22,882 bases of DNA from a virus: the IMG/VR virus record IMGVR_UViG_3300033153_007511, positions 1 through 22,882 of that record. One strand, written 5' to 3'. The first letter of the stretch is position 1. Every line of letters starts with the position of its first letter. This document shows, in pieces, positions 755 through 22,882 of this stretch. The notes below the pieces were generated by a model. The model saw only the letters and a list, made by a program, of their open reading frames with translations. It ran no database searches and was not told the origin of the DNA. The position numbers and the translations under genes are program-made.

Positions 755-2440
755 ATGGTCATGAGAAAAACGAAAAAAAATAAGAAGAAAAAAACAGAAA
801 ACATATGGTATAATGGTGTTAAAGGATTAAAAAAAGCTGGTGTTGATGTATCATCATATATGACATCAGAGAGAGAAGAAGAAATTTCTAAATGTATGAA
901 TGATGCTTTTTATTTTATAGAAAATTATTGTTTCATTAGAACACTAGATCCTGATGAAAAGGGAAACCGTGTTATGTCTGTCAAGGATGCTGGGGGCTTG
1001 AGATGGTATCAGAATAAACAGATTCAAGATTATTTAGATAATAGATTCATAGCGTTAAATTTTCCTAGACAATCCGGGAAAACTGTTGGTACTGTTTTAT
1101 ATTTTGTTTGGAAATTAATGTTCACCGATGATTTCAATATTATGTGTCTTGCAAATAAGGACAAAGTAGCAAAGAATATATTAACAGAAGTGAAAAGAAT
1201 ACTCAAAAATTTACCTGTTTGGATGTCAGAGGGTATTGTTTTGGCAAACGAGCATAAAATAGGTTTTGAAAATGGTAGTTGGATAGAGGCAAGTGCAACA
1301 ACATTAGATGCTGGTCGTTCATCTTCTGCAAACATTATTTATTTAGATGAAGTCGCATTTGTTAAACGCAATGTTTGGTTAGAATTTTACAAAGGAGTTT
1401 ATCCGACCATATCATCAGGTAATACAACACAACTTATCGCAACTTCTACTCCAAATGGGCTAAATCATTGGTGGAAAATTATATCAGAAGGTAGACAAAA
1501 ATTAAATGATTATGTTATACATGAAATAAAATGGTATGATGTGCCGGGCAGGGACGAAAAATTCAAAGAGCAGACTATTAAAAATTTGGGAAAAGCAGCA
1601 TGGGATTCTGAGTATGATTGTCAGTTTATTGGTTCTGCAGGAACACTATTAAACTCCACAGTATTACAATCATTGGTATCATCAAACCCACTCAAAGAAA
1701 TATCAATATACAACAATAAATGGAAGCTCAAAATATACAAAGAATATATAAAAGGACACCAGTACATAATGACTCATGATCCCTCATATGGTTATGGTGA
1801 TGGTAGTGATTATTCTGGTATACATGTGTGGGATGTCACCTACAAAAATAAAATAGAACAAGTTGCAGTTATGTACGAAAATACGATAGGAAAAGAGGAA
1901 GCTCCTTATGTTCTCAAAAAAATTGGTGAACTATACGGAAATCCTTTTGAAATATCAGAAGTTAATAAATGTGAGGATGTTCCAAAAGATTTGATCACAG
2001 AAGCAGAATATATGGGAGAAGTGTACAGGGACCCTAAACGATATGGGTTGTTACAAACAGGGAAAACACGATCTGAAGGTTTAAAACAGCTTCAAAAAAT
2101 GTTTAACAATGACATGATGATGATTCATGATTTTGACACCATACACGAGTTATCTGTTTTCATTAAAAAGGGCGACAAATATCAGGCAGATGATGATGAG
2201 CACGATGATCTTGTAATGTCCATGAATCTGATGACATGGTTGATGAGCGATAAAAATAGATACGAGAAATATATTACAGATCAAGTTGATTACATGAATG
2301 ATATACAAGGGATCAAAGTTAATAATGGTATTGCATTGGTAGTTGATGGTAATCGAGATGAAGACTGGAGTAGTGATTCGAGTGATATTACAGATTGCTA
2401 TGGTGATGATATCCCAGATAATTTTTACCCCTCTTCTTAA
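755..2440 (+). CDS. terL: Terminase large subunit (DNA-packaging ATPase/nuclease)
   Basis: The 561-residue motor protein pumps DNA into the prohead and cuts the concatemer. Visible motifs: Walker A PRQSGKT (residues 104-110), Walker B IIYLDEV (194-200) with the catalytic Glu, and coupling motif ATSTPNG (229-235). The RNase H-like nuclease domain has HDPSYGYGDGSDYSG (341-355) with candidate metal-binding Asp342 and Asp352, and a C-terminal HDD (483-485). This matches the T4 gp17 plan, somewhat shorter than gp17's 610 residues. The N-terminus is Lys-rich. The start at 755 has AAGAGGT at 744-750; a second ATG at 761 is possible. It is the first gene of a late-type rightward unit. No small terminase subunit gene is visible in the window. 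Confidence 0.96.
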   Translation: MVMRKTKKNKKKKTENIWYNGVKGLKKAGVDVSSYMTSEREEEISKCMNDAFYFIENYCFIRTLDPDEKGNRVMSVKDAGGLRWYQNKQIQDYLDNRFIALNFPRQSGKTVGTVLYFVWKLMFTDDFNIMCLANKDKVAKNILTEVKRILKNLPVWMSEGIVLANEHKIGFENGSWIEASATTLDAGRSSSANIIYLDEVAFVKRNVWLEFYKGVYPTISSGNTTQLIATSTPNGLNHWWKIISEGRQKLNDYVIHEIKWYDVPGRDEKFKEQTIKNLGKAAWDSEYDCQFIGSAGTLLNSTVLQSLVSSNPLKEISIYNNKWKLKIYKEYIKGHQYIMTHDPSYGYGDGSDYSGIHVWDVTYKNKIEQVAVMYENTIGKEEAPYVLKKIGELYGNPFEISEVNKCEDVPKDLITEAEYMGEVYRDPKRYGLLQTGKTRSEGLKQLQKMFNNDMMMIHDFDTIHELSVFIKKGDKYQADDDEHDDLVMSMNLMTWLMSDKNRYEKYITDQVDYMNDIQGIKVNNGIALVVDGNRDEDWSSDSSDITDCYGDDIPDNFYPSS

Positions 2441-2453
2441 AGTACAACATCCT

Positions 2454-2461
2454 TATAAATA
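2454..2461 (+). promoter_or_regulatory. Late promoter TATAAATA before the sheath-like gene
   Basis: TATAAATA followed by AT lies in the 50-base gap between terminase and the next gene, 29 bases before its ATG. A GAGG ribosome site is at 2482-2485. Spacing and position match the other rightward starts. Confidence 0.7.
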
Positions 2462-2490: not shown

Positions 2491-3801
2491 ATGATAAATC
2501 TAAGCAAGGTAGATTTTCAGAGCAGTAAAAAACCAAAAACTGGTCAAAAAGGTTTGTTTTGGGGGTTGACATTTTACGAATCCATCTGGGGACCGTTGTT
2601 AGAACCCACCCACATTTCTAGCACATCAGAGTTGGTTGATAGATTTGGTAATTATGATGCAACTCTTGATAATAAATCGGATTTCATGCAAGCATGGAAT
2701 TTTCTTGAATATAGCACTAATTTAAAAATATATCGAGTGGGGACGGCATCAAACAACCCTATATTCTCAACCAATGTTTTAACTGGAATGGGAGGAAACT
2801 CGAACTCGCACTTATTTCTTGATAGTGTTACTGGGGGTGATACCAGTGTTTGGAATTCTAGTGACAATGGCTCAGATGTGTTTATCAGATTGGGTGATAT
2901 GACTAGACATGAGGATGAACCAACATACGGCACAGATCAGGTATGTTTTTGTTATGCAAAATACACAGGAGCACTTGGTAATCAAATAGGAATATCTACA
3001 GCAAACTATTTGGATGTTCTTTCTGAAAAATATGTGTGGAATCAAACGTCATGGACAGAGATTGATCTGGTGGATGTGAGCAATTTTGTTGCTGGGGGTG
3101 ATATTTCTGGTGAAACATCTGGTGCATCTGGCACAATATCTGCTGTAAATGGGAATAGAATAGAAATTATCTACACAGAGGGTTCTGTTGCATTTGTGAG
3201 TGGTGAAAATGTTGATAATGTTGTTAGTTTTGTTGCTACTGAAACTACTTGTTCTAATATAGATAACTACGACAAAGAAACTAATTTTTCTTTTGATGAC
3301 ATATTACCAAGATCACTTGTGATCAATGAGTTTGCTGTTGCCATAACAGTTGATAATATTTTGAAAGATGTTGTGATACTGTCAATGGACAATGATAAAC
3401 CAAACTATATAGAAGATTTTGAAAATCCTTGGATTGGTTTTTTTGTTGACACTAATTTAACAATAGCAGTAGACACTGATGATACCGCAACAAAATATGG
3501 GAAAATACCAGTAAGTGTGACAAAAAGAAACTTGAGGTTTGGTGCAAATGATATGATACCAAACACAGAGATAGCAGAATTAATAGGAAAACTATCAAGT
3601 GTTTATTTTGCTGATTATGATGTTATATTTAGTGAAAACAATGATAATGTTATAAAAGATGCAATAGATACACTTGCAGATGAGAGGTTTATAATACCTA
3701 TCATAAATAATTATGGGTATGTTGACTATGGGTATTTGATTGATAATTATTCAGATTTTATAACCACACATGATGGTTATAATATTATAATAGTAGGTTA
3801 A
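2491..3801 (+). CDS. Truncated tail-sheath homologue (N-terminal part only)
   Basis: This 436-residue protein is a sheath paralogue without the C-terminal core. Residues 20-85 carry the sheath N-terminal pattern (WGP at 33-35, LVDRFG at 48-53, AWNFLEY at 68-74, then iYRV), as in T4 gp18. Residues 155-169 (YAKYTGALGNQIGIS) match YAKYPGSRGNDIKV in the full sheath at 13607-15985. Residues 199-245 hold one GGDISGETSGASG beta-repeat, also present in the full sheath. FAVAITVDN...KPNYIE (281-308) aligns with EYALLVYVDD...EPNYID. The end, with DYDVIF and ADERF (375-400), resembles the Rossmann-like sheath domain, and then the protein stops. About 300 C-terminal residues are missing and are not found downstream in any frame. 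Possible roles are baseplate- or neck-proximal sheath variant or adaptor for the fibre genes that follow; the role is inference, the homology is strong. Confidence 0.82.
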   Translation: MINLSKVDFQSSKKPKTGQKGLFWGLTFYESIWGPLLEPTHISSTSELVDRFGNYDATLDNKSDFMQAWNFLEYSTNLKIYRVGTASNNPIFSTNVLTGMGGNSNSHLFLDSVTGGDTSVWNSSDNGSDVFIRLGDMTRHEDEPTYGTDQVCFCYAKYTGALGNQIGISTANYLDVLSEKYVWNQTSWTEIDLVDVSNFVAGGDISGETSGASGTISAVNGNRIEIIYTEGSVAFVSGENVDNVVSFVATETTCSNIDNYDKETNFSFDDILPRSLVINEFAVAITVDNILKDVVILSMDNDKPNYIEDFENPWIGFFVDTNLTIAVDTDDTATKYGKIPVSVTKRNLRFGANDMIPNTEIAELIGKLSSVYFADYDVIFSENNDNVIKDAIDTLADERFIIPIINNYGYVDYGYLIDNYSDFITTHDGYNIIIVG

Positions 3802-3814
3802 AGGAGAAAATAAT

Positions 3815-4600
3815 ATGGCTAGTAATAAAAGATTTGATGAAATGACCGAAAAGGCTACTATTGCAAATACTGATATTTTGCTTATTGCAGATTATGCGGA
3901 TTTAGACATCAACAGTAACCCAAAAACAAAAAAACTGACATGGGCAAATATGCTGACTATTATTGCAGCATCTGGGTTTGTGCTCGATGTTGACTATGAT
4001 GCTTACTCAATTTTAGCATCAGATGCAGATGATACACCAGTTGCTCTGACAGTAGCAGCATCTACTTTTGTTGGGAGAAAAACAAGTGGGGGAATTTCCG
4101 CCATGACTGCCTCAGAAGCAAGGGATGTTTTGAGTGTAGAAGAAAATTCTACCGCTGATCAAACAGACAGTGAAATAGAAACAGCATATAATAACCAAGT
4201 CGCTCAAGTTTCTGAAACAGAAAAAGATGAAATGACGAGCACATCGATAAAAACTAGTGCACCGAAGGATATTGCGGATATCGCTGGCACGGGAAATAAT
4301 ATAGTAACTGATTCAACAACCTCAAGAACATTTTCCCTGACAGACAGCAACAAACACATAAGATGCACCAACGGGTCAGCGATCACTCTCACAGTACCCC
4401 TTAACGCTACAGTACCTCTTCCAATCGGTTTCATGTGTGAGCCAGAACAAGCAGGGGCTGGAACAATTACATATTCCCCCGAAGGGGCTGCTGTATTGAG
4501 ATCGAAAGATTCTAATCTTAGCTCTAACGGTCAATACGGTTCTAGTATGATCAAGAAAATCGGAACGGACGAGTGGCTAATAGTCGGAGATCTAGCATAA
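3815..4600 (+). CDS. Tail-fibre/virion-appendage-like structural protein
   Basis: 261 residues. The N-terminal part (TDILLIADYADLDIN near residues 19-33) resembles the opening of many phage fibre and appendage proteins. A middle stretch (SAMTASEARDVLSVEEN, about residues 94-110) is typical of fibre shaft linkers. The C-terminal portion (about 165-261) is Thr/Gly/Ser-rich and predicted beta, ending in DEWLIVGDLA. The ribosome site is AGGAGAAAATAAT before ATG, 13 bases after the preceding stop, so it is co-transcribed with the sheath-like gene. Its stop overlaps the next start (TAATG). I do not recognise a named family; the fibre call rests on composition, linker motif and position before a giant kelch protein. 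Confidence 0.6.
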   Translation: MASNKRFDEMTEKATIANTDILLIADYADLDINSNPKTKKLTWANMLTIIAASGFVLDVDYDAYSILASDADDTPVALTVAASTFVGRKTSGGISAMTASEARDVLSVEENSTADQTDSEIETAYNNQVAQVSETEKDEMTSTSIKTSAPKDIADIAGTGNNIVTDSTTSRTFSLTDSNKHIRCTNGSAITLTVPLNATVPLPIGFMCEPEQAGAGTITYSPEGAAVLRSKDSNLSSNGQYGSSMIKKIGTDEWLIVGDLA

Positions 4601-5418
4601 TGTTTAATCGCAGAAGATGTATGTTACAGCAGGGGGTTATACCTCCAATACCTTTCGCCGCTGAACAATCATTCGGTAGTGTATTAGACATACAAGATGC
4701 AGGACAATACGATTGGTATCTCTACCCAAAAGCTGAAAAATATGATGATGAAAACGTATCAACACAGTCTTCAAAAATAGCATACGATAATCAACATGGA
4801 TACTGTTACTATTATGACATAACAACAACTGATATTTTCTATGCCGGAACTGATATAACCTCAGCAGGAACACAACTCACAAATTGCACTGCAACGTCTG
4901 GTAGCGAAGGGCTTACTGCTGGTGCTGAATATGTCTATGGATTAGGTACTGATTATCAGACCGTAAGAAGGATCAAATACGACAATACGGACGAAGGTCT
5001 TGTAGGTACATTCTCCGCAAACATGTCAAGTATATTTTACTGGGATGGTGTTGTATACGGAATAACTGCAAACGGTACAACAATACAAAGGTTGCACGAT
5101 AACAAGACTATGGATTTAACTCCTATGCTAACAGGTATCACCAATAACATTAGTGTAAGCAGAGGTGCCGACTACGACGGTCATACGCTCTATATCAATG
5201 CGGATGGATCGGGTGCTGGAACTCTACTTGAATTTAACTGGGAATGCAACATGGGAATAAGACCCGTACTTTACACTGCTATGGAAAATATTGAGACATT
5301 AATGACTACAGGATTAGATAGCTGTGTAATCAACCCAGTAACACATAGAGTAGAGCTACTTAACAACGTTGTCACAAACTCCAGAATATACATGCTAAAA
5401 CTCAAAGGCGAGGCTTAA
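4600..5418 (+). CDS. Hypothetical structural protein, beta-rich, between fibre-like and kelch genes
   Basis: 272 residues from the ATG that overlaps the upstream stop (TAATG, 4598-4602). An in-frame GTG at 4573 would add nine residues but lies inside the previous gene; GGAG at 4584-4587 favours the ATG. The sequence is rich in Tyr, Asp, Gly and Thr, with short repeated strand-like stretches (TVRRIKYDN, IFYWDGVVYGI, TIQRLHDN) suggesting a small propeller or beta-sandwich. No signal peptide, membrane segment or catalytic motif is visible. Its operon position between a fibre-like protein and the kelch protein suggests a host-contact or appendage assembly role, which is inference only. Confidence 0.6.
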   Translation: MFNRRRCMLQQGVIPPIPFAAEQSFGSVLDIQDAGQYDWYLYPKAEKYDDENVSTQSSKIAYDNQHGYCYYYDITTTDIFYAGTDITSAGTQLTNCTATSGSEGLTAGAEYVYGLGTDYQTVRRIKYDNTDEGLVGTFSANMSSIFYWDGVVYGITANGTTIQRLHDNKTMDLTPMLTGITNNISVSRGADYDGHTLYINADGSGAGTLLEFNWECNMGIRPVLYTAMENIETLMTTGLDSCVINPVTHRVELLNNVVTNSRIYMLKLKGEA

Positions 5419-5421
5419 CAA

Positions 5422-8400
5422 ATGAAATCACATAACATAGAACTAGGACTAAGAACAATAACCAAAGATGAACACGGATGTATCCTGAGAGATTCTAACT
5501 TCAACTCTAACAAAAATGCTGAAAGTTCAATACAGGCAGGAGACAAGACGTTTCCGATGCGTAGCCCCGTGAAGACACTGTTTGATGGTTTAGATAATTC
5601 GTTCAGAAATAATGCAGGTGTTCTACCCAAACTCAAAGCAGTACACACTAACGGTAGTGACTGGGAAGAGAAGACTACTGTTGCTCCTTGGGGTGATAGG
5701 GGGGATTTTAACCCGGTAGAGTATCAAGGAAAACTATGGGTAATTGGTGGCTCGGATGGAACCACCTACTACAATGATGTGTGGTCTTCTGAAGATGGTG
5801 AAAATTGGCGCGAAGTTTTAGCCAATGACGCGACGCCCCCAGGAACACAATTCCCGCAAAGACGGGGACATCAAGTATACTCCTTTGATGACAAACTTTG
5901 GGTCGTTGGTGGTTATACAGGTGCTGCTTATCTCAATGATGTTTGGAACTCAACGGATGGGATAACATGGGCAAATAATCTAGCCGACACGGGAAGCCCT
6001 GGTGCTGATCAATTCTCAAGAAGATCTTATTTCACGGGTTGTGTTTTTAACGACAGAATGTGGGTAATAGCCGGAACAACGGGAACCCTGACTAATGAAG
6101 TTTGGAGTACTGCGGATGGTACTGACTGGGATAACGAAGGAGCTTCTGCACATTTTACTGCAAGGCAACTACTTGTGTGTACTATATTCAATAATGAGAT
6201 GTTTATATTTGGTGGACATGATGGTTCTCCCACAAACGATGTTTGGTCAAGTGTGGATGGTGCTAGTTGGACTGATGAAAGTGCAACATCTCAGTTCTCT
6301 GCAAGAAGCGGATTAAGTGCAGTGACAGTGGACGGCAAAATGTGGGTGTTTGGTGGAACTACTGGAACAATAGCAGATACAGCAAATGCACAAAATGATG
6401 TATGGTGGTCAGTTAACGGTTCCGTATGGACACAAGGAGGCAAATCAGGTTTTTGGAAAAGCAGAACACGACAAGGTGCTGTTGCTTTTAAAAATCAAAT
6501 ATATCTAATGGGAGGGGTAGCATCAACTAATGTAAATGATGTTTGGTCTAGCAAAGACACCTTCAACAATAACGCATGGGATGAAGTAGATGATAGTGCT
6601 GACTGGGTAGGAAGAAATGGTCATAGATCTGTGGTTTTTCAAAATAAAATGTGGATTATTGGTGGTTGGAATGACATCGCTGATTATAACGGCGTTTACT
6701 CGTCTCCTGATGGCACTGCGTGGTCAACTGTTTTATCTGAGGGTCATGGTCAGTTTACAGCAAGAAGACAACATACGCTGTTAGTTTATGATAATAAGAT
6801 GTGGATAATCGGAGGATTCATTGATCCTGCAACTAGTTTAAACGATGTCTACTCTAGTCCCGATGGTGTAACATGGACACAGGAAACCGCAAGTGCTGCC
6901 TTTTCCGCTAGATCAGGTCATGCATCTTTAGTCTATGATAACAAAATGTGGGTATTGGGTGGCTCTGACGGTGCTAGGAAAAACGACGTTTATTGGTCAA
7001 CAGATGGCTCTACTTGGAACACCGCGACAATAAGCGCAGGGTGGTCTGGTAGAGTGATTTCATCGGGTATTGTCTTTGATAATAAAATGTGGTTAATAGG
7101 GGGAGATGATGGGTCGGCCAAATCAGATGTTTGGTCAAGTTCAGATGGAGTTACCTGGATAGAAGAAACACCTGACGGGGCTTTCGGAGGCTCTTTCGGG
7201 TCTATTTGTACAACATTCAATAACCGAATATTTATCGTTGCAGCGGCGGGAGATAGTGATAGCGTTTGGTCAAGTTCAAATGGAAAAGACTGGACTAAAG
7301 ATGAATCTGATGCTGAATGGGTCGGACGTTGGTATCATAACGTTTTGACCTTTAAAAATAAAATATGGATACTTGGCGGAAAGAATGGATCAGGAAATTT
7401 AAACGACGTATGGAGTTGGAACCCTTACCCTACAACAACAGGAATAACATTAGGATCAGGAACATTTGGCAGTAGTTGGAGTGAGATACTTGCTGACGAT
7501 GCAACACCCCCGAGCACACAATTCAATCAACGAGAATGCTCTTCCTTAGTTTTCAACAACAAACTTTGGATAATCGGAGGATTTGACAGTACTAATTATT
7601 TTAATGATGTTTGGAGCAGTTCAGACGGCATTAATTGGACTGAAGTGCTTGCGGATGGTCATGGTCAATGGTCACAGAGGAGACTGCATCAAATAAGTGT
7701 TTTTGACAATAAAATGTGGGTATTTGGGGGAACTACCAATATTAGTGAATTAAATGATGTTTATTCTTCCTATGACGGCGTAACTTGGACTCAAACAACA
7801 GCGGCGGCGGAATGGCCTATACGTTCCTCTTTTTCTTCATTGGTATTCGACAACAAGATGTGGGTTATGGGCGGCTACTCTTCTACAGTAAATAGAAACG
7901 ATGTTTATTCCAGTTCAGACGGCATAACTTGGAATGAGGAGACATCCTCAGCGGATTGGGATGCTCGGAGAGGACATACGACCTTAGTTTTCGACAATAG
8001 AATGTGGGTATTTGGTGGATATGGTAGTGGTACGACATATAATGTCTGGAGCAGTTCGGATGGGATTAACTGGGTTGAGGAAGCTTCCGCAATATGGATG
8101 GGTAGACGTTATGTAGGGTCGTGTGTATTCAACAATAAAATGTATGTGAGTTGCGGGTATACTACGGCTTCTTTGGATGATGTCTGGTCTTCAGAAGATG
8201 GGATTAACTGGTCAGAGGTGTCTAGTTCATTAGGCATAGGAACACGATATGTTATAGGAATGTCAGTGTTTGACAATAAACTTTGGATCATGGGCGGGAT
8301 TACAGACTCTTCCAATCTAAACGACGTTTGGGCAACAAACATAACCACAACAGCAGTAGATCCTACAGACACTGCCCTAGAAGATATACAGAACAACGGA

Positions 8401-10017
8401 ACAGACAAACTAACCTATGGTAACTGTGAAGTAGTACCGTTTGGAACTGCTACGTTGAGTGGGGCGAGTTGGACGGAGAAAACTGCAAGTGCTGCTTGGT
8501 CTACTAGAAGAGGTCATGCTTCTGTGGTCTTTGACAATAAGATGTGGGTTATTGGAGGATGGAATGGTACACAATTTTTCAACGGGGTTTATTCTTCCCT
8601 AGACGGTATTAATTGGGTGACTGTTTTACCAAACGGTCACGGAGGCACTGAACAATGGTCTCAAAGAAGTAACACAAGAGTAGTCGTCTTCGACAATAAG
8701 ATGTGGTTAGTCGGTGGTCGTACTGGCCCTGCATATCTTAATGATGTATATAGTTCAACTGATGGTGTGACTTGGGCATTGGCGACATCAAATGCAGGTT
8801 GGGATCTTAGGGTGTCCAATACTTTAGTGGTCTTTGACAACAAGATGTGGGTTATCGGTGGTTTGGACAGTTCGATGGTCTATCGGAATGATGTATGGTC
8901 CAGTAGTGACGGGATTAGTTGGGTAGAAGAAACGCCGAGTGCGAACTGGGGATCAAGATATGAGCATGTATCTGTGGTCTTTGACAACAAGATGTGGGTT
9001 ATCGGTGGTTATGCTGGTACATACATTCCTGATGTATGGTGTTCCGGTGATGGTATTAATTGGTCGGAGGTTGCAGACGGTTGTGACTTTAGACCATTTT
9101 CCCCTGTTGGATTAGTTGCAAATAATAAAATATTTTTACTTGGTGGATCTAGTGCTGAGGATAGCGGAGATGCCTCAAATGATATATGGTATTCAGAGGA
9201 TGGAGAATCTTGGAGTAAGATTCTCGTTTCAACTATATGGAGTGGGAGAGTTTATTTTTCTGGGGTGTTTTATGACAATAAGATGTTGATGTTTGGTGGT
9301 ATTGGGTCTTCTTATCTGAATGATGTATGGTGTGCAGAAGACGTTCTTTCAATAGGCGTAAAAAGAAAACTCAAAAACAATTGTGACTCAGACCTCGTAA
9401 TAGCCGAATCAGGAATAACTCTAACAGATACAATAGAATCAGCAAATCAAGTATGTGTTAGAGATGCAGTAGCAACTACAATAATGCCAAACAGAGAACT
9501 CACAATGACGTACAAGATTAATGCAACCATAGACAACACCTCTCCAATACTGACATTCAACGAGAACTTCTTTAAAGCGTTACAAGCAGCAATGCAAAAC
9601 GAACCCGTTGAGCTTAACCATACCAACACATACACAAACATTGTAAATCCTTTCTCGCTGTCAAATGGTGCAAGTATCCTAGGAGGGGCAGGTGTTCACA
9701 AAGAGGGTTTAGTAGTAGGAACGCAAGCGAATCCTGTATATAACGAACATGATTTGGGAATCGAATCATCACTCACGTACAGTGCACATACATATACCCC
9801 TCCCACAATAAATGGCTCAAAAACACAGATAGTAATATCAAGAGACATAACGAACGAAACGGGAAGTGATTTTGGGATAAACTGTTTCGCATTAAAAATA
9901 CTGACAGACACTTTTCCGTATTCTGAATATTCCATAATCCAAGGTGATCTAAACGAAACATTGCTGAAGAATCAAGTACTCACAATAACATTAACAATCT
10001 CAGCAGATACCGCATAG
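5422..10017 (+). CDS. Giant kelch-repeat protein, probable four-propeller adhesin or receptor-binding protein
   Basis: 1531 residues. Twenty-four kelch-type blades follow the pattern FdNKMWVIGG...NDVwSSsDGinW...R.gH, at about 51 residues each. First blades of successive sets of six are near residues 103, 407, 713 and 1039. The sets are marked by irregular joints: an altered joint (SSKDTFNNNAW) after blade 6, TTTGITLGSGTFGSSW after blade 12, and a longer linker (TDTALEDIQNNGTDKLTYGN) after blade 18. This fits four six-bladed beta-propellers. Residues 1-100 are a separate N-terminal region. Residues 1312-1531 are a beta-rich, non-repeat C-terminal domain, possibly for trimerisation or attachment. 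Kelch propellers bind proteins or glycans; host recognition is inferred from size, repeats and neighbours. There is a three-base gap after the previous stop and GAGG lies about 9 bases upstream. Confidence 0.88.
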   Translation: MKSHNIELGLRTITKDEHGCILRDSNFNSNKNAESSIQAGDKTFPMRSPVKTLFDGLDNSFRNNAGVLPKLKAVHTNGSDWEEKTTVAPWGDRGDFNPVEYQGKLWVIGGSDGTTYYNDVWSSEDGENWREVLANDATPPGTQFPQRRGHQVYSFDDKLWVVGGYTGAAYLNDVWNSTDGITWANNLADTGSPGADQFSRRSYFTGCVFNDRMWVIAGTTGTLTNEVWSTADGTDWDNEGASAHFTARQLLVCTIFNNEMFIFGGHDGSPTNDVWSSVDGASWTDESATSQFSARSGLSAVTVDGKMWVFGGTTGTIADTANAQNDVWWSVNGSVWTQGGKSGFWKSRTRQGAVAFKNQIYLMGGVASTNVNDVWSSKDTFNNNAWDEVDDSADWVGRNGHRSVVFQNKMWIIGGWNDIADYNGVYSSPDGTAWSTVLSEGHGQFTARRQHTLLVYDNKMWIIGGFIDPATSLNDVYSSPDGVTWTQETASAAFSARSGHASLVYDNKMWVLGGSDGARKNDVYWSTDGSTWNTATISAGWSGRVISSGIVFDNKMWLIGGDDGSAKSDVWSSSDGVTWIEETPDGAFGGSFGSICTTFNNRIFIVAAAGDSDSVWSSSNGKDWTKDESDAEWVGRWYHNVLTFKNKIWILGGKNGSGNLNDVWSWNPYPTTTGITLGSGTFGSSWSEILADDATPPSTQFNQRECSSLVFNNKLWIIGGFDSTNYFNDVWSSSDGINWTEVLADGHGQWSQRRLHQISVFDNKMWVFGGTTNISELNDVYSSYDGVTWTQTTAAAEWPIRSSFSSLVFDNKMWVMGGYSSTVNRNDVYSSSDGITWNEETSSADWDARRGHTTLVFDNRMWVFGGYGSGTTYNVWSSSDGINWVEEASAIWMGRRYVGSCVFNNKMYVSCGYTTASLDDVWSSEDGINWSEVSSSLGIGTRYVIGMSVFDNKLWIMGGITDSSNLNDVWATNITTTAVDPTDTALEDIQNNGTDKLTYGNCEVVPFGTATLSGASWTEKTASAAWSTRRGHASVVFDNKMWVIGGWNGTQFFNGVYSSLDGINWVTVLPNGHGGTEQWSQRSNTRVVVFDNKMWLVGGRTGPAYLNDVYSSTDGVTWALATSNAGWDLRVSNTLVVFDNKMWVIGGLDSSMVYRNDVWSSSDGISWVEETPSANWGSRYEHVSVVFDNKMWVIGGYAGTYIPDVWCSGDGINWSEVADGCDFRPFSPVGLVANNKIFLLGGSSAEDSGDASNDIWYSEDGESWSKILVSTIWSGRVYFSGVFYDNKMLMFGGIGSSYLNDVWCAEDVLSIGVKRKLKNNCDSDLVIAESGITLTDTIESANQVCVRDAVATTIMPNRELTMTYKINATIDNTSPILTFNENFFKALQAAMQNEPVELNHTNTYTNIVNPFSLSNGASILGGAGVHKEGLVVGTQANPVYNEHDLGIESSLTYSAHTYTPPTINGSKTQIVISRDITNETGSDFGINCFALKILTDTFPYSEYSIIQGDLNETLLKNQVLTITLTISADTA
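8827..8863 (+). repeat. 37-bp exact direct repeat inside the kelch gene (second copy 8974-9010)
   Basis: The 37 bases at 8827-8863 recur without change at 8974-9010, encoding the VVFDNKMWVIGG core of two neighbouring blades in the fourth propeller. The spacing of 147 bp (49 codons) is one blade, so recombination between them would remove or add a whole blade in frame. Confidence 0.85.
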
Positions 10018-12136: not shown

Positions 12137-12144
12137 TATAAATA
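12137..12144 (+). promoter_or_regulatory. Late promoter TATAAATA for the 12183 gene
   Basis: TATAAATA followed by AT, 38 bases before ATG 12183, with GGAG at 12174-12177. It starts the block leading to the sheath gene. Confidence 0.65.
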
Positions 12145-12182: not shown

Positions 12183-12956
12183 ATGAAACCATATTTCAAA
12201 TGGGCAATTTTTCTTGTTTTTGTGCTGTTGATCGCAATTTTGATATCGAGTGATACAGGAAACACTTTAATAAACTGGATCATATCATTTAGCAACAGCA
12301 CAAACACCGGCAAGGGGATAATAACAGCACTGATAGGTGGGCTGTTTGCTGTCATTGCAGCATACATAAAAACAGTCCTTTATAATGCAACAACCCACGC
12401 ATCAACAGAAATCAAAATCGGGTATGAAAACATAACCGAGAAAATACTAAATTTGACAAATACAATTGACATAACTAGAAAAGACATAGAGAGTTTGAGA
12501 CATGATTTTTCAGAGATGAAATTAAGCCAATCCACACGAGAGGAGTACGAGAAGCAACTAACCAAAGTTATCAACACTGCAATTGGTTATTTCAACGTTG
12601 ATAGTGATTTGCAATCATTTGTCAGATACCAAGCAGAAGAGTTCAAGAATTTCACAGTCAGCATTCAACAAAAAGATTTAAAAGATTTGGAATATGAAGA
12701 TATAAAACAATCTGGCATAACATTAGCAGAAACTATCTATCAACGATCGTGCGAACTACTTGGAAATGAAGCAGCAAACTATTACAGAGACAATTGTTAT
12801 CTAGGTGATTGGAAAATATTTATGAACAAGGTTAAATATATCATTAACGATCCGGTGAATAATAAAAATTATAGGTTCTTTTCGGAGTCAACAACATATT
12901 TACAAACATCTATGTCAAGAACGTTAGAATGCTGGATGAATTACAATAAAAAATAG
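12183..12956 (+). CDS. Membrane protein with two N-terminal helices and a large helical cytoplasmic domain
   Basis: 257 residues. Two hydrophobic segments: residues about 7-23 (WAIFLVFVLLIAILISS region) and 45-66 (GIITALIGGLFAVIAAYIKTVL region). After them a heptad-like helical stretch (about 80-125: ITEKILNLTNTIDITRKDIESL) suggests a coiled coil, followed by a helical C-terminal domain. Polarity predicts both ends in the cytoplasm. No known motif is visible. It has a late promoter and sits 8 bases before the sheath C-terminal homologue, so it is expressed with tail genes. A membrane-anchored late assembly or lysis factor is possible; the T4 holin has only one helix and a periplasmic domain, so it is not an obvious match. 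Confidence 0.7.
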   Translation: MKPYFKWAIFLVFVLLIAILISSDTGNTLINWIISFSNSTNTGKGIITALIGGLFAVIAAYIKTVLYNATTHASTEIKIGYENITEKILNLTNTIDITRKDIESLRHDFSEMKLSQSTREEYEKQLTKVINTAIGYFNVDSDLQSFVRYQAEEFKNFTVSIQQKDLKDLEYEDIKQSGITLAETIYQRSCELLGNEAANYYRDNCYLGDWKIFMNKVKYIINDPVNNKNYRFFSESTTYLQTSMSRTLECWMNYNKK

Positions 12957-12964
12957 GTGATATC

Positions 12965-13555
12965 ATGTCAAACAGAGAAAATTTGGTATACTTCAACAAC
13001 CAAAAAACACAGCAAAATCCATATACTAATACACTAGAAGAGTATGGAGTGTCAGGGGATGTTGCAGGGGTGGTGATACAGAAATTAAATTCCCGGGAAT
13101 TTTCCGAGATAGCAGGTTCAACCAATTCAGATATAAAAAACATAGTATCTATTAATCAATACACTTATGATGAAGCACTTGAAAAAGAAAAAGACAACGA
13201 GAACATCATAGAGCGACTAGGGGATAAATTTTTTATACACGGGAACACAACAAACAAAACAGACAAAGAGCACATGACCGCATATCTAAATATTAAATTG
13301 TTAGTAATGTATATAGATAAAGGACTAAGCAAGTATTTTGACAATATGATAGGTTCTAATTTTTCTGATAAAAGGATATTGAGGCGACTAGAAGGGAAGA
13401 TGGAAGAAATATCAGGAAATGTGAAAAGATATTTAAGGGATTTTGCATACGAGATAACCTATGAAGATGATAAAAGGAAGATAGATGTTGATATATTTCA
13501 GGCATACAATAAACCAATAGGGAAAATAAAATTAAACATACAGCAAATTGATTAG
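12965..13555 (+). CDS. Stand-alone homologue of the tail-sheath C-terminal domain
   Basis: 196 residues. Residues 109-133 (starting NIKLLVMYIDKGLSKYFDNM) align with residues 681-704 of the full sheath at 13607-15985 (starting NAVLVVTRDMKVLSKLLDNY), sharing N, L, V, K, LSK, DN, I and N in register without gaps. Preceding 'hGn.T' and 'WGqkT' also correspond. The rest follows sheath C-terminal logic: FSDKRILRRLEGKMEEISGNVKRYL in two overlapping helices, then IDVDIFQAYNKPIGKI, matching sheath VVDFYVRPAKAVEYI. There is no sheath N-terminal or middle domain; residues 1-90 are different. In contractile tails this domain builds the inter-subunit mesh and contacts the initiator and terminator, so a cap, initiator or regulator role is inferred. 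AGGTGAT precedes the ATG. The alignment was made by eye. Confidence 0.6.
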   Translation: MSNRENLVYFNNQKTQQNPYTNTLEEYGVSGDVAGVVIQKLNSREFSEIAGSTNSDIKNIVSINQYTYDEALEKEKDNENIIERLGDKFFIHGNTTNKTDKEHMTAYLNIKLLVMYIDKGLSKYFDNMIGSNFSDKRILRRLEGKMEEISGNVKRYLRDFAYEITYEDDKRKIDVDIFQAYNKPIGKIKLNIQQID

Positions 13556-13562
13556 TGTAAAT

Positions 13563-13570
13563 TATAAATA
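13563..13570 (+). promoter_or_regulatory. Late promoter TATAAATA for the tail sheath
   Basis: TATAAATA followed by AT, 36 bases before the sheath ATG, with GAGGAGAA at 13593-13600. It starts 7 bases after the stop of the upstream gene. Confidence 0.7.
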
Positions 13571-13606: not shown

Positions 13607-15985
13607 ATGGCAACAAATAACAGCCCTCATGTAAAAAAAAGAATCCAGGATAAAAGTCTTGGTGTGGTTCCTTTAGGTGCTGGCAACGGTGCTTTTATCT
13701 GTGGTGGTCAGTGGGGACCATGCGGAAAAGTTTTCACCGTTCAAAGTGAAAACGATTTAAGAGATATGTTAGATGAGCCTGTAGTGGGAAACAATCATCA
13801 ATCATGGCATGCAATCGCACAGCACGTCGAATTTTATTCAGGTGGTGCTAAAATAGTTCGCCCCTACGACACAGCAGGACTTGCAAATTCATGTCTGATA
13901 GCATCTGTAGATTCTTCTACTACCGCATTTTCAACAACAGGAACAACTAGTAATGGTACTGCAATTCCTTATAACCTCAATGTTGATGCTGATATTTCTA
14001 TCACACCCACACTCATACCTCTGCAGAAATTAACTTGTGCAGATGGTTCAGTATTTAGTGCAGGTGGTGATATTTCAGGCGAAACTTCTGGAGCGGCAGG
14101 AACAGTAGCATACATTATCGGAAATTATGTGTATGTAAAAGACATCACTGGCGGTCCTTTTCAGGCAGAAAATCTTGATGATACTGCTATCTATGCAGCG
14201 ACAATCACAACTTCTACAGCTGTCACACAGGATCAGGATCAGGTTCTCTACCTCTATGCTAAGTACCCAGGTTCAAGAGGTAATGATATTAAGGTTGCTT
14301 TCTGTGATCATGTTAATTTTCATGACAGAACTAGACTAACAGTAGGAACAGATGCAGAGGCACAATTTGCAGCAGGTGATGTTGTTGTTGGATCTACCTC
14401 AAACGCATCTGGTATTGTATATGCCTCTGATACAACCAATCACTATCTCTACCTAAGAGATGTTAGTGGTGTTTTTCAGGCAGAAAATCTAACTGTAATA
14501 GGTGAAGAACAATGGATGATAACTGTTGGAGCAGGAGAAGAAAATACATTCACTGTTGGTGAAAAAGTATACCAATCATCTAGTATTTACGGTTATGTTT
14601 CAGATATAGACACAACAAGCCATATTTTATACCTTGCTAACAGTGGCACTGGAACATTCACAACCGCAGCAGTAACAGGAACGAGTGGTGGTGCTGGTAC
14701 AGCATCAGCAGTGGCAAATGTTTCAGCAGTTGCGTCTGCATTCGATGCAACAGGGTTAGGATCTACAGCAGATGGAACAAACACATTTAAAGCGCTCGTG
14801 AAAAACGAGACAGGAACAGAAACACTTGCATCAGATGAATATGCACTTTTAGTCTACGTTGATGATGTACTAACAGAAACACACGTTGTTTCACATACAA
14901 CTACATCAACCAAACCAAACGGGAATGAGCCAAATTATATTGATTATTTGCTAGAAAATGATTCAGCGTGGTTATACTCTGTGACAGATGTTAGTGGCGT
15001 GAGTTTTGATGATTTTAGCGGATCTTTTCAGAAAACATCTCTAGCAGGAGGAACTGCAGCACAGTGTTCAATCTCTGCCTGTCAAGTGGCATATGATACC
15101 TTATTTAATGATACAAGAAATGGGATCTATTTTGTTGGTGATTATCATGATATGGCATCTTACGATGTTAGTAACTATAGAACACTTACTGCATATATGG
15201 TAGGGAAAGCAGAATTGTCAAGGGAACATTTTTGTATATCAACATTGCCAAAGGCTGCAATAAGCGACACTGCGTTTGATATTAACACGCTGAACGAGAG
15301 TGTGGCGGGAATAAATTCAAAATACATTAGTATCACAGATCAATGGAAAGAGATCTGGTGTAAATATAATAGAAGGAAATATTTCATTCCTACGACTGGT
15401 GATGTTATGGGATTGGTTATAAACAATGTTGAACAAAATGGTGACTGGGAAGCACCTTTCGGAAATACCAAGGGTGTTATGAGAAATACTACCAAATTGT
15501 ACCATAATCTGTCTACTGGCGAAGCAAGCAACGTGTCGGATCTCTATGGGGCGGGAATCAACAGTATTATATATAAAGAAGATATTGGGTTTGTATTATG
15601 GGGACAAAAAACGAGATTCAACCCAGCGTCAGACCTAAGTAGAATTAATGCTGTTTTAGTTGTTACTAGGGATATGAAAGTTCTAAGTAAACTTTTGGAC
15701 AATTATATTTCATATAACCTTAATGAGAGCTTGTATGCACTTGTTACAGTTGCATGTGATAGGGGATACCTGGCAGGCAGAAGTGCGAGCGGGGCATATT
15801 TGTCCCAAAATGGTGATGGTGGGTATGAATTTGTGTGTAGTAGTCAAAATAATACACCTGCAACACAGAAAGCTAACACGTTGGTGGTAGATTTCTACGT
15901 TCGTCCCGCGAAGGCAGTCGAATACATACACTTCACGGCGATTGTCACCCCGAGCGGAACAACATTTAAAGAACTTGTTGGGTAA
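13607..15985 (+). CDS. Tail sheath protein (full length)
   Basis: 792 residues; contracts to drive the tube through the host envelope. The N-terminal sheath pattern is at residues 28-88 (GGQWGP, LRDML, YSGGAKIVRPYD). YLYAKYPGSRGNDIKVAFCDH (215-235, in parts) is the conserved sheath strand. EYALLVYVDD at 411 and EPNYID at 441 follow. The C-terminal core runs from about 570 to 792: ITDQWKEIWCKY, a proximal FVLWGQKTRF, the helix around 681-704 and the final strand VDFYVRPAKAVEYIHFTAIV (761-780). T4 gp18 has 659 residues. The extra length comes largely from three beta-repeats inserted at about 149-199, 253-300 and 313-360, each of the form FsaGe.v.g.tSgAsG.v......lylrdvsG.F.aeNl. The late promoter is at 13563. 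Confidence 0.93.
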   Translation: MATNNSPHVKKRIQDKSLGVVPLGAGNGAFICGGQWGPCGKVFTVQSENDLRDMLDEPVVGNNHQSWHAIAQHVEFYSGGAKIVRPYDTAGLANSCLIASVDSSTTAFSTTGTTSNGTAIPYNLNVDADISITPTLIPLQKLTCADGSVFSAGGDISGETSGAAGTVAYIIGNYVYVKDITGGPFQAENLDDTAIYAATITTSTAVTQDQDQVLYLYAKYPGSRGNDIKVAFCDHVNFHDRTRLTVGTDAEAQFAAGDVVVGSTSNASGIVYASDTTNHYLYLRDVSGVFQAENLTVIGEEQWMITVGAGEENTFTVGEKVYQSSSIYGYVSDIDTTSHILYLANSGTGTFTTAAVTGTSGGAGTASAVANVSAVASAFDATGLGSTADGTNTFKALVKNETGTETLASDEYALLVYVDDVLTETHVVSHTTTSTKPNGNEPNYIDYLLENDSAWLYSVTDVSGVSFDDFSGSFQKTSLAGGTAAQCSISACQVAYDTLFNDTRNGIYFVGDYHDMASYDVSNYRTLTAYMVGKAELSREHFCISTLPKAAISDTAFDINTLNESVAGINSKYISITDQWKEIWCKYNRRKYFIPTTGDVMGLVINNVEQNGDWEAPFGNTKGVMRNTTKLYHNLSTGEASNVSDLYGAGINSIIYKEDIGFVLWGQKTRFNPASDLSRINAVLVVTRDMKVLSKLLDNYISYNLNESLYALVTVACDRGYLAGRSASGAYLSQNGDGGYEFVCSSQNNTPATQKANTLVVDFYVRPAKAVEYIHFTAIVTPSGTTFKELVG

Positions 15986-17364: not shown

Positions 17365-17883
17365 ATGACAACTATAGATGAACAGCGGGAAAAAATGTCT
17401 AGTTTGATCCGTCCAAACAGGTTTAATGCTAAAATATTTTTCCCACCTTTTTTGGATGGTACAATCGCAACTGATTTGTCCACCTTTATGATCGAAGCAA
17501 CCGTAATCCCATCCTCTGAAATGGGAATCATAGAAGTTCCTCTCGCCGGTGGATCAAAGTTAAAACTTGCCGGAGATGAGACCTTTCCAGACTGGTCAGT
17601 AACAATAAAAGCATCTGCTGACATGCCGATTTACAGAGCCTTTACCCGTTGGAGAGAGTTTATTAAATCTCCTGTTGCTGGTACTCGTGCAAACGATTTG
17701 ACCTATAAATCAATCGTTGAAATTGGTCTGCTTGATGGTGTCAACGAAGTTGTGCATCTTACAGAACTTATTGGTGCTTTTCCTGTTTCAGTGGGTGAGT
17801 TGAGCCTTTCACGTGAGGAAAATGATACTTATTTACGTTTTGATGTGACTTTCGCATACGATTATATGGCACAACCTTTTTAA
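17365..17883 (+). CDS. Tail tube protein (T4 gp19-like)
   Basis: 172 residues, close to T4 gp19 (163). The order of motifs is that of gp19-type tubes: SSLIRPNRFNAKIFFPP (13-29), FMIEATVIPSSEMGIIEVPLAGG in parts (41-63), KLKLAGDETFPDWSVTIKA (65-83), a central helix with FTRWREFI (93-100), V.EIGLLDG (117-124), L.GAFPVSVGELSLS (135-149) and a final RFDVTFAYDYM. It forms the inner tube inside the sheath. AGGAG lies 9 bases before the ATG, immediately after the HNH stop. Sheath and tube genes are normally adjacent; here the HNH gene separates them, which fits homing insertion. Confidence 0.93.
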   Translation: MTTIDEQREKMSSLIRPNRFNAKIFFPPFLDGTIATDLSTFMIEATVIPSSEMGIIEVPLAGGSKLKLAGDETFPDWSVTIKASADMPIYRAFTRWREFIKSPVAGTRANDLTYKSIVEIGLLDGVNEVVHLTELIGAFPVSVGELSLSREENDTYLRFDVTFAYDYMAQPF

Positions 17884-18986: not shown

Positions 18987-19397
18987 ATGAAATACTTCTC
19001 AAAATTACTGGAAAAAAGAACAACAGACGATGAAATAGAAATATATAATTTGCTCAGGTCGGTCAGAGTTGATCAGATCCTCAATGACAAATATCTGATT
19101 GACTACACTATCAAAGATGGTGACAGTCCTGAACAGATAGCACACAACGTATATGGTAATATTGATCTCTGGTGGATTCCTCTTGTTGTCAACAACATCA
19201 AAGATAGGTTTTATGAGTTTCCCATGAATGATAGAGTCCTGAGAGACTACTACACTTATCTTGTTGGGCTGGGAGAAACACCTACTTATTCAGACATGGT
19301 AACAGAGAACAATGCTAAGAGAAACATCAAGATAATTGATCCTAAATTTATATCGGGTTTCTTGTATCAGATAGAAGAGAAGATAAACGAGGGATGA
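18987..19397 (+). CDS. Baseplate wedge protein, gp53-like
   Basis: 136 residues. LIDYTIKDGDSPEQIAHNVYGNIDLWWIPLVVNNI (in parts, residues 37-71) is the hallmark of gp53-type baseplate wedge proteins, with a LysM-like fold; RFYEFPMNDRVLRDYYTY (74-91) follows, as in the family. T4 gp53 is longer (196 residues), so this is a compact version. It would join wedges into the hexagonal baseplate on which tube and sheath grow. It has its own late promoter and is a single rightward gene between two leftward clusters. No good Shine-Dalgarno sequence precedes the ATG. Confidence 0.85.
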   Translation: MKYFSKLLEKRTTDDEIEIYNLLRSVRVDQILNDKYLIDYTIKDGDSPEQIAHNVYGNIDLWWIPLVVNNIKDRFYEFPMNDRVLRDYYTYLVGLGETPTYSDMVTENNAKRNIKIIDPKFISGFLYQIEEKINEG

Positions 19398-19509: not shown

Positions 19510-20085
19510 TTAAAATAAAATTCCTTCTGATTTAAAACCATATGCTGAAATATGATTACTTGGTATTCTCACGCCCTCTATAACAAATGATCTATCTTTG
19601 TGTGAACCAGTTCTTAATTTAGAATAAGCATCACCAATTTTATCAAACCCCACCTTACTACCAATAGAAATCTCTTTGTTCTGGTATACAAGTATTGCAT
19701 CACCGCCCTCATCATCAGGCAATTTCAGCAAGACACTTTCTTGATTAAAATCTTTTCCTAATGTTTTAGCAAAGACCTTAAATTCATCAAGTGTCATGAC
19801 CTTTTGATTAAAAGGGATAAACACTGACAATTCACTTTCAGTATGACCATCATCATATTTGTATATCCCATCAATTTCAAAAAACCCCATCTTTTCTTTT
19901 TTGAGTCTTTTTTTAAGCTGATCGTGATTTTTATTATTCTTTTCTTGGTTGTCTCCTCTGTAGGCAGAGATCATGATAAAACCTTTTTTACCATGTGTCC
20001 ATACTCTACTAAGTGAAACTTCAAACAGTGATTCCCCTCTGTCATAAGTTTCTCGTGCTATCAATTTACCGTCTTTTAAATACAT
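19510..20085 (-). CDS. Hypothetical protein, possibly DUF3293-like
   Basis: 191 residues from ATG 20085, which has GGAGG five bases upstream; a TTG at 20097 would overlap that ribosome site. Features: FIMISAYRG (about 36-44), NNKNHDQLKKRLKKEKMGFFEIDG (in parts, 50-73), SELSVFIPF (84-92), then FAKTLGKDFNQESVLLK (104-120). The 'saR...N...L...l...G.gf....G.y...E.sflv......A..fgQ.s' plan recalls DUF3293 and related phage proteins; this is from memory and tentative. No membrane segment. Last gene of a leftward unit, possibly with its own promoter at 20115-20122. Confidence 0.6.
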   Translation of the reverse strand: MYLKDGKLIARETYDRGESLFEVSLSRVWTHGKKGFIMISAYRGDNQEKNNKNHDQLKKRLKKEKMGFFEIDGIYKYDDGHTESELSVFIPFNQKVMTLDEFKVFAKTLGKDFNQESVLLKLPDDEGGDAILVYQNKEISIGSKVGFDKIGDAYSKLRTGSHKDRSFVIEGVRIPSNHISAYGFKSEGILF

Positions 20086-20114
20086 AGTAGCCTCCAAATA
20101 TGTTTAGTTTGTAA

Positions 20115-20464: not shown

Positions 20465-20776
20465 TTAACGATGGTTGAGATAAATGTTGCCATCGTTCCG
20501 GGAGATGGTGGCATCTCCCAAAGTTTCGATCTTGTTGTGACGGAGATCAACCCATTCATCATTCTGGAATATGTCGGTATCTGGTAGGGTTGTAATATTG
20601 TTGTTGCTTAGGTCGATATTGCCTTCATTCTGAAATATGCACGAATCGGGTAGAGTTGTAATGTTGTTGTAGCTGAGATCAACGTCTCCCGCATGAGTTA
20701 CAATAATCTCATTGCCATCAATTCTGTAATCATAACACTTGGATTCTAATAATTTTATCATTTTGTTTCTCTTCAT
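20465..20776 (-). CDS. Small leucine-rich-repeat protein
   Basis: 103 residues with GGAG 7 bases before the ATG. After a short N-terminal part (about 1-28) come repeats of 23 residues: vDLSYNNITTLPDSCIFQNe, iDLSNNNITTLPDTDIFQNd, vDLRHNKIETLGDATISRN, then a partial IYLNHR. The DLxxNxIxTLP core is a leucine-rich repeat in which the IFQN...vdL segment closes the turn. Short LRR proteins with FQN-type repeats occur in other phages and probably bind a host or phage protein; the partner is unknown. Three full repeats are few for a stable LRR solenoid. The final repeat stops short, so it may be a truncated version of a longer gene. Confidence 0.8.
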   Translation of the reverse strand: MKRNKMIKLLESKCYDYRIDGNEIIVTHAGDVDLSYNNITTLPDSCIFQNEGNIDLSNNNITTLPDTDIFQNDEWVDLRHNKIETLGDATISRNDGNIYLNHR

Positions 20777-20964: not shown

Positions 20965-21234
20965 TTACTCTGAAATAGTTGCTATGATTTCATCCGCAGG
21001 AAGGAGTATAACATCCTCCCCATCGTGCTGAAAACCATCAACTGCTTTGTACCCCTGATAGATCACAACTTTGTCACCAAGATAACCTTTTAATCCTTTC
21101 ATGTTTCTTTTTTTCTGAGGATAATCGTTTTCTAGCAACATCCCAAGATCATTGTGTGTTGTCTCTGTATCCTCTATAACTTCATCAATAGGTTTAATAA
21201 CTACCCACCCCTCTGCTGGTTCAATAACACTCAT
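20965..21234 (-). CDS. groES: GroES-like co-chaperonin
   Basis: 89 residues. WVVIKPI (10-16) is the first GroES strand. DLGMLLEN (29-36) sits where the mobile loop and its hydrophobic GroEL-binding tripeptide are expected. GDKVVIYQGYKAVDGFQHDGEDVILLPADEIIATI in parts (53-87) matches the GroES C-terminal strands. The middle (KKRNMKGLKGY) is short and lacks the usual GEVxAVGxG strand and roof loop, so the dome may be reduced. Bacterial GroES has about 97 residues. It would cap the adjacent GroEL. Its ATG overlaps the groEL stop (TAATG) and its ribosome site GGGAGG (21249-21244) is made of the groEL codons for the Met-Gly tail. Confidence 0.85.
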   Translation of the reverse strand: MSVIEPAEGWVVIKPIDEVIEDTETTHNDLGMLLENDYPQKKRNMKGLKGYLGDKVVIYQGYKAVDGFQHDGEDVILLPADEIIATISE

Positions 21235-22865
21235 TACATCATACCTCCCATCATACTAGGATCCATCTGTGGCAATCTACCGCCGTCCTCTTCAACAATC
21301 ATAACAGACGTAGTGATTATAGTACCAGCAACAGAACTTGCATTAAGTAAAGAAGATTTAGTAACTTTAGTAGGATCAATAACACCCATTTTAAACATAT
21401 TACCGAATTTATTCGTTACTGCATTCCAACCATAGTTTTTACTGTTTTTTGTTAAAACATTTTTTAACACTTCTTCTCTGTTAGCACCAGCATTCATGGC
21501 AATAGTTTCTAGGGGACTAACAAGAGCATCAAGAACAATGTCCCTACCGTTCTTCTCATCATCAGTCTCAAAATTCAACTTTGCAATTTCAAGTTTTTTA
21601 TAGCAATGAGCAAGAGCAGAGCCACCGCCTGGAATAATGCCTTCTGCTACTGCTGCTTTTGTAGCATTAATAGCATCCTCTACCCTATCCTTTTTCTCTC
21701 TCATTTCTACTTCACTTGGTGCTCCAACCTTAATAAGAGCAACACCACCAGAGAGCTTTCCTATTCTTTGACTGATCATTTCTTTATCGTAGTCAGATGT
21801 TGTTGCTTCTCTCTGATTTTCAAGTTGTTTAACCCTAAATCTAATATTTTCATCTCTACCATTGCCATCAATAACAGTTGTGCTGTCTCGAGTGATAATG
21901 ATTTTCTTTGCCTCACCTAAATGAACAACACTTGCATCTGTTGCTTTAATACCATACTCAGATGAAATAATAGCACCACCAGTGAGTGTTGCAAGATCTT
22001 CTAATATATCCTTTCTAGCCATGCCAATTTCAGGAGCTTTGATAATAGCACCCGTAAAATTGTTTTTCATTTTATTCTGTACGAACATACTTAAAGCTTC
22101 TGGGCTTGCATCATCACAAATAATTATGATAGGTTTTTTCTTTTGTGATGCAACTTCGAGAACAGATTTAATATCTTTCAGTTGTTTCAATCTTTCTCCC
22201 ATTATCAAAATATAGGCATCCTCTAGTGTAGCAGTCATTTTCTCCATATCTGTAGCAAAGAAAGGTGACAACAAGCCTCTGTTGAATTCCAGTCCCTCTA
22301 CGATATCAAGATATGTTTCCATGCCCTGTGCTTCCTCTACAGCGACAACTCCCTCCGTCCCTACACATTCCATTGCCTTTGCGATAAGATCACCAAGCTC
22401 CCTATCATTGTTAGCAGAAATAGTAGCAACATCAGAAATATCATCAACTGTGTTAATAGGTACTGCCATTTTATCTAATTCTTTGAGGACAAATTCGACT
22501 GATTTATCGATTCCTCTTTTTAGAAAAACTGGGTTTGCTCCCTTGTCGATCACTTCAAACCCATTGTTAATGATTGATTGTGCAATACAACAACTTGTAC
22601 TTGTACCATCACCTGCAGTCTCGTTTGCTCTAAGTGCTGCTTCTTTTATCAATTGTGCTCCTACATCAGCAAGCTTATCATCAAGAGAAATTTCCCTTGC
22701 AACATAGTAGCCATCCTTTGTGATAGTAGGAATCCTAAATTCTAATTTAGACACAACATTTCTACCACCTGGTCCGAGGGTTGCACAAACAGCATCCCCA
22801 ACCACATTCACCCATTCGAGCAATTTTTCTTTCATTTCCTCGCCAAAAACAACTTGTTTTGCCAT
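21234..22865 (-). CDS. groEL: Phage-encoded GroEL chaperonin (Hsp60)
   Basis: 543 residues from ATG 22865, with AAGGAGG seven bases upstream; a TTG two codons earlier is not needed. It folds proteins in an ATP-driven double-ring cage. Nucleotide-site motifs: TLGPGGRNV (29-37), TKDGYYVAREI with Asp51, and AGDGTSTS (84-91, bacterial consensus AGDGTTTA). The region LSGGVALIKVGAPSEVEMREKKDRVEDA includes the Asp equivalent to E. coli Asp398 (in DRVEDA), followed by EGIIPGGGSAL. The apical domain is present (ALSMFVQNKM, TLTGGAIISSE). The tail GGRLPQMDPSMMGGMM is the usual Met/Gly-rich end. Length and motifs indicate a complete, probably active chaperonin. The gene order groEL then groES is the reverse of the bacterial operon. 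The promoter lies outside the window. Confidence 0.97.
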   Translation of the reverse strand: MAKQVVFGEEMKEKLLEWVNVVGDAVCATLGPGGRNVVSKLEFRIPTITKDGYYVAREISLDDKLADVGAQLIKEAALRANETAGDGTSTSCCIAQSIINNGFEVIDKGANPVFLKRGIDKSVEFVLKELDKMAVPINTVDDISDVATISANNDRELGDLIAKAMECVGTEGVVAVEEAQGMETYLDIVEGLEFNRGLLSPFFATDMEKMTATLEDAYILIMGERLKQLKDIKSVLEVASQKKKPIIIICDDASPEALSMFVQNKMKNNFTGAIIKAPEIGMARKDILEDLATLTGGAIISSEYGIKATDASVVHLGEAKKIIITRDSTTVIDGNGRDENIRFRVKQLENQREATTSDYDKEMISQRIGKLSGGVALIKVGAPSEVEMREKKDRVEDAINATKAAVAEGIIPGGGSALAHCYKKLEIAKLNFETDDEKNGRDIVLDALVSPLETIAMNAGANREEVLKNVLTKNSKNYGWNAVTNKFGNMFKMGVIDPTKVTKSSLLNASSVAGTIITTSVMIVEEDGGRLPQMDPSMMGGMM

Positions 22866-22882
22866 TCTCAATCCTCCTTATT

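Follow-up and report, generated by a model that had tools for sequence, protein, structure and literature searches.

We found that P0001, a 196-residue protein encoded by a viral DNA fragment, matches, on sequence grounds, just the C-terminal third of a T4-gp18-type sheath and stands alone as a separate protein. The same fragment encodes a full-length main tail sheath and a third protein, hereafter N-only, that has the N-terminal sheath domain and lacks the C-terminal third. The window analyzed here is the whole record of 22,882 bases (Table 1), a fragment of a T4-like myophage that is far from all records searched; among these, terminase identity to the nearest match was ~36% at best and main sheath identity was <30%. 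The phage seems to have a second, diverged sheath protein in two pieces, of the kind represented by CPT_0034 of Campylobacter phage CP220. Phage sheaths are usually encoded by one gene, and here a minor sheath in two pieces would stand beside a whole main sheath.

Table 1. Features of the 22,882-base window, in order of position.
Feature	Position	Strand	Remarks
Terminase large subunit, gp17-like	755..2440	+	Directly followed by the N-only gene
TATAAATA, late-promoter-like	2454..2461	+	5′ of the N-only gene
N-only sheath protein, 436 aa	2491..3801	+	N-terminal sheath domain, 61 bits
Fibre or adhesin-like cassette (261-aa, 281-aa and 1531-aa kelch-repeat proteins)	3815..10017	+	Between the two sheath parts
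1531-aa protein of the cassette	5422..10017	+	Many kelch-type beta-propeller repeats
159-aa gene	11100	+	
TATAAATA, T4-late-promoter-like	12137..12144	+	5′ of the 12183 gene and P0001
257-aa gene	12183..12956	+	Hydrophobic N-terminus; ends 8 bases before P0001
Shine-Dalgarno-like AGGTGA	12955..12960	+	4 nt 5′ of the P0001 ATG; shares bases with the stop codon of the 12183 gene
P0001, C-only sheath protein, 196 aa	12965..13555	+	C-terminal third of a T4-gp18-type sheath, judged by sequence
TATAAATA, late-promoter-like	13563..13570	+	Between P0001 and the full sheath gene
Main tail sheath, full-length, gp18-like, 792 aa	13607..15985	+	phrog_23 E 1e-36; PDB T4-like gp18 chains, best E 3e-21
CapR/HNH-like protein	16081	+	
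Tail tube, gp19-like	17365..17883	+	phrog_45 E 3e-38
gp53-like baseplate wedge protein	18987..19397	+	PF11246 E 8.5e-11
S-adenosylmethionine lyase family protein	19513..20097	-	PF23780 E 1e-12
Short leucine-rich-repeat protein	20468..20776	-	
89-aa ORF	20968..21234	-	Adjoins the GroEL-like gene
GroEL-like chaperonin	21237..22871	-	Cpn60_TCP1 E 1e-61

From its sequence signals, P0001 looks like a real, late-expressed gene. Its reading frame, placed by an earlier note exactly where we find it, stays open for 196 codons, whereas 500 dinucleotide shuffles had no open run of more than 126 codons, and the N-only frame stays open for 436 codons against a shuffle maximum of 125-126. Both partial sheath genes have start signals (ribosome-binding sites) of their own. 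The T4-late-promoter-like TATAAATA occurs at eight sites in the window with 2.8 expected, a count reached by no shuffle, and the seven sites on the + strand precede the terminase, N-only, 11100, 12183, sheath, tube and gp53 genes. The 12183 gene and P0001 are probably co-transcribed.

The reading frames also bear on whether the two partial genes are relics of a tandem sheath copy that was broken by the fibre cassette, with pieces that are translated and no longer needed. The gene order would suit such an origin: N-only follows the terminase directly, which is the usual place of gp18 (as in pf16, Smp14 and S-PM2), P0001 directly precedes the full sheath gene, and the 9.2 kb between them consists mostly of fibre genes. 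The strong divergence of P0001 points the same way, and so does the sheath of Campylobacter phage CP21, whose C part is likewise in pieces. However, both frames are open far past chance, start signals and late-promoter-like sites accompany both, and no additional residues precede the sheath homology in P0001. We regard relics as quite unlikely.

To place P0001 among sheaths we relied on profiles and on shuffled controls. An HMM of the sheath C-terminus, built from ~117 other sheaths with P0001 and the window sheath left out, gave P0001 21.8 bits, while the best of 6,000 shuffles reached 12.0 and the best of 1,725 real ORFs 5.4; two related HMMs gave 19.1 and 16.5 bits against a best control of 10.8. 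The match pairs profile positions 9-129 with P0001 residues 11-129 and fades past residue 129. Compared directly with the main sheath, P0001 residues 109-132 share 11/24 identities, ungapped, with sheath residues 681-704, in line with the roughly ten first reported, where P0001 shuffled 40 times and compared with the C region of the sheath gave no ungapped 24-mer with more than 10 identities (mean 7.4). The resemblance first seen between the closing strands comes to 4/16 identities (P0001 173-188 and sheath 759-774) and is weak alone. Over the whole window sheath, BLASTP was marginal (20.8 bits, E 0.059), and the Smith-Waterman score was exceeded by only 1-4 of 1000 shuffles. The end-to-end profile score of P0001 was not above chance (Z 1.8), its identities at conserved sheath columns were no better than those of shuffles, and with one deep full-length HMM 1 of 5,000 shuffles scored above it.

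The gap left by the weak pairwise match to the main sheath and by the fading of the profile match after residue 129 is closed by CPT_0034, a diverged minor sheath whose C-terminal end is the closest relative of P0001 that we found. Aligned end to end with that C-terminus, P0001 scored 78, where shuffles gave 22 ± 8 (Z 6.7, 0/1000) and no more than 68; 496 real ORFs reached at most 46. These scores, together with those of the C-terminal HMM, beat their controls and make it highly improbable that P0001 is some other tail or neck protein, such as a terminator or a member of an uncharacterized family, with a similarity to sheaths owed to chance or a shared fold. Such a protein would fit the two whole-length tests that did not rise above chance, as well as the absence of any Pfam match and, at E ≤ 1, of any sheath PHROG; among the PHROGs, phrog_34287 matched best (E 8e-4), and it had no match in 20 phage records. 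However, the only phmmer match of P0001 among the ORFs of ~170 phage loci was the Astolliot sheath (E 1.5e-4), and tblastn against 50,697 phage records gave five weak matches, two of which, those of broadest coverage, were sheaths (E 4-8). The earlier note had named a better match to a gp25, gp15 or gp3 family as evidence against a sheath origin; Pfam and the PHROGs gave none at E ≤ 1.

P0001 had been described as a protein with the sheath C-terminal domain only. Its C-terminal assignment holds, and its extent has to be revised, as the match begins inside the sheath just N-terminal to the GDIAG motif, ~80 residues before the closing domain. By profile mapping P0001 corresponds to T4 gp18 residues ~444 to ~645, the last third only, and it does not have the complete set of N-terminal arm, middle domains and C-terminal arm that makes up a full-length sheath. 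Its C-terminus falls 9-12 or more residues short of all 64 other sheath segments in the alignment, and the missing residues are not encoded in the frames past its stop codon. P0001 shares with T4 gp18 (phrog_23) the GDxAG motif, an N-(I/V)-(K/R) helix motif and, in predicted models, the helix-helix-three-strand order; it differs in lacking the first two thirds, the NNTP loop and those final residues, with an identity of ~20%.

A structure model predicted from a sheath alignment was used as support only and was not counted as independent evidence. A single-sequence AF2 model of P0001 was poor (pLDDT 38.7), with a low-confidence order of helices at residues 98-128 and 136-154 and strands at 160-167, 172-179 and 183-191. 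Given the 64 sheath segments as alignment, AF2 returned a model of moderate confidence (mean pLDDT 65) that is biased by that alignment and whose best PDB matches were sheaths (Foldseek E 5e-5; VIA-align Z 8.6). Residues 93-194 of the same biased model also align with T4 gp25 (Z 7.8).

The gp25 alignment raises the question of whether P0001 acts by itself as a platform in the manner of gp25, taking up the terminal strands of a sheath ring, with N-only doing a separate job such as tail decoration. On this account P0001 could start, cap or tune sheath assembly, the role first proposed for it. The EPR motif is a feature of gp25 and the GPW_gp25 family. P0001 resembles this initiator in being a small stand-alone protein with, in the models, the fold of the sheath C-terminal domain, and differs from it in having no family match (PF04965 or gp25 PHROG, E ≤ 1), no EPR motif and an extra middle-domain segment. 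That segment comprises ~90 residues of sheath middle domain that gp25 does not have, and the strongest sequence match of P0001 lies there. A precedent exists in phage XM1, whose gp25-type initiator is similar to the C-terminal domain of the sheath and holds on to the termini of the first sheath ring (PMC10457771). The far C-terminal residues missing from P0001 and the different nearest relatives of P0001 and N-only would also suit a platform. However, P0001 has no GPW_gp25 match and the true gp25 gene probably lies outside the 22.9-kb contig, and we consider a gp25-like platform unlikely.

The third sheath gene bears out the claim that this phage has full, N-only and C-only sheath genes. N-only scored 61 bits with a sheath N-terminal profile and had no match with the C-terminal profile, and hhalign gave its N-terminal sheath domain a probability of 97.7. 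The protein starts at the VxVSExDL strand, without the N-terminal MAxxLSPG residues that precede it, and is closest to the main sheath and to CP220 CPT_0052. Further on, N-only matches the main sheath significantly in a single local stretch (4/1000 shuffles), which begins before PNYI and runs somewhat past it; the last ~100 residues have no significant sheath match, and the extent there rests on length. N-only residues 190-257 (3058-3261) and main sheath residues 141-206 (14027-14224) have in common an insert, FxAGGDISGETSGAxGT..., at 40% identity over 68 aa, which suggests paralogy or exchange between the genes.

Because N-only stops, by length, where P0001 begins, the two look, from their sequences, like complementary parts of one minor sheath. 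From PNYI to its end N-only has 133 residues, and the main sheath has 129 between PNYI (442) and the start of the P0001 match (571). An hhalign alignment of N-only plus P0001 was collinear over profile columns 24-634, with a hand-over near column 430. Against one split gene, P0001 scores 21.8 bits and N-only 61 bits where the full sheath scores 102 and 61, so that the C half is far less conserved; given this unequal divergence and their different nearest relatives, N-only and P0001 may not derive from one gene.

We tentatively favor, at somewhat short of an even chance, a reading in which P0001 is a genuine late structural protein that forms with N-only a two-chain minor sheath subunit, specialized and likely placed in a baseplate-side ring. 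A sheath protomer of the type VI secretion system is built from two separate chains, TssB and TssC. P0001 and N-only would pair likewise, both would be present in the virion, and the paired chains would supply the minor sheath subunit of a specialized ring in the contractile tail, with the baseplate side its likeliest position. The C-terminal domain of the minor sheath would receive the arms of the overlying main-sheath ring, and the shortened ends of the minor sheath would grip less below; a C-terminal domain with shortened ends would thus fit a baseplate-side ring. The pair may have arisen from a tandem copy of the sheath gene into which the fibre cassette was inserted. In CP220, CPT_0034 is encoded on the same strand as gp25 and three annotated genes away from it, which is in keeping with the baseplate side. 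Against this reading, the split point here differs from that in CP220. The putative two-chain sheath is cut elsewhere than TssB/TssC, and the main sheath here is one chain. The fuller proposal, a split myovirus minor sheath whose two separately encoded chains, with trimmed arms, reassemble into a specialized terminal tail ring, we rate as rather doubtful. The arrangement makes it possible to test how the first or last ring of a contractile tail is marked, and would parallel, in a phage, the two-chain sheath of type VI secretion.

The earlier note knew of no described system with this set of genes. That view has to be qualified, since public data already include a T4-like phage with a whole sheath gene, an N-only gene and a gene for a C part. 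In CP220 (Firehammervirus), CPT_0034 is a whole, diverged minor sheath whose C-terminus is also short, CPT_0052 is an N-only sheath protein with Ig-like domains, and CPT_0053 is a C-part of 578 aa without the N-terminal domain; related Campylobacter phages have close relatives of CPT_0052 and CPT_0034. According to passages of the CP220 study, all three proteins were detected in mature virions; the same passages describe them as multiple gp18 copies and do not call two of them partial (PMC2853527). In the open-licence literature we found no paper naming the CP220 sheath genes as complementary parts. CP220 thus has the same three kinds of sheath protein in a mirror arrangement: its main sheath is split into two adjacent genes and its minor sheath is whole, whereas this phage has a whole main sheath and apparently a minor sheath divided between two genes 9 kb apart, with the cut nearer the C-terminus. 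Taken with its mirror image in Campylobacter phages, a two-piece minor sheath next to a whole main sheath suggests that sheath genes tolerate splitting and that more than one kind of sheath subunit serves in the tails of some T4-like phages. Phage PaBG likewise has two different sheath proteins, listed at ~58 kDa each (PMC7412058), which unlike those here are not N- and C-terminal parts.

Direct searches for P0001 homologues among viral contigs, genome contigs, PDB sequences and phages (tblastn at E ≤ 1) gave nothing usable, and single-sequence scans of viral contigs with the sheath, terminase and N-only proteins gave no near relative. Profile-led scans collected ~240 T4-like loci. Among 267 loci with a sheath (222 full ORFs; some loci overlap), separate sheath parts were genuine only in Campylobacter phages, and the co-occurrence of N-only and C-only genes looked for in relatives is confined to these. 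Three further candidates (L040, L132 and L260) appear to reflect frameshifts or truncated reading frames. Vibrio phages Va1 and phiKT1024, considered as candidates for a split sheath, each have one whole sheath, and in Fletchervirus NCTC12673 the single sheath match extends over a reading frame that contains one stop. In CP21 (locus L186, 5924-9294) the pieces of the sheath C part are ~163, 311 and 145 aa, and a 388-aa ORF between two sheath pieces is perhaps an intron or mobile insertion. Another family, phrog_13288 (208 aa), matches the sheath C-terminal third only and may be a further C-only sheath family. Annotation lumps partial sheath genes as 'tail sheath', as for CPT_0052 and CPT_0053, or leaves them nameless, as for phrog_13288.

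Several other genes in the window merit mention. The 1531-aa protein of the fibre cassette is probably an adhesin. On the - strand, the S-adenosylmethionine lyase family protein is of a kind that phages use against restriction systems, and a short leucine-rich-repeat protein is encoded beyond it. The phage also encodes its own GroEL-like chaperonin, and the 89-aa ORF next to that gene resembles GroES by eye, although Pfam gave no match for it. Vibrio phages Va1 and phiKT1024 have a GroEL gene between sheath and tube.
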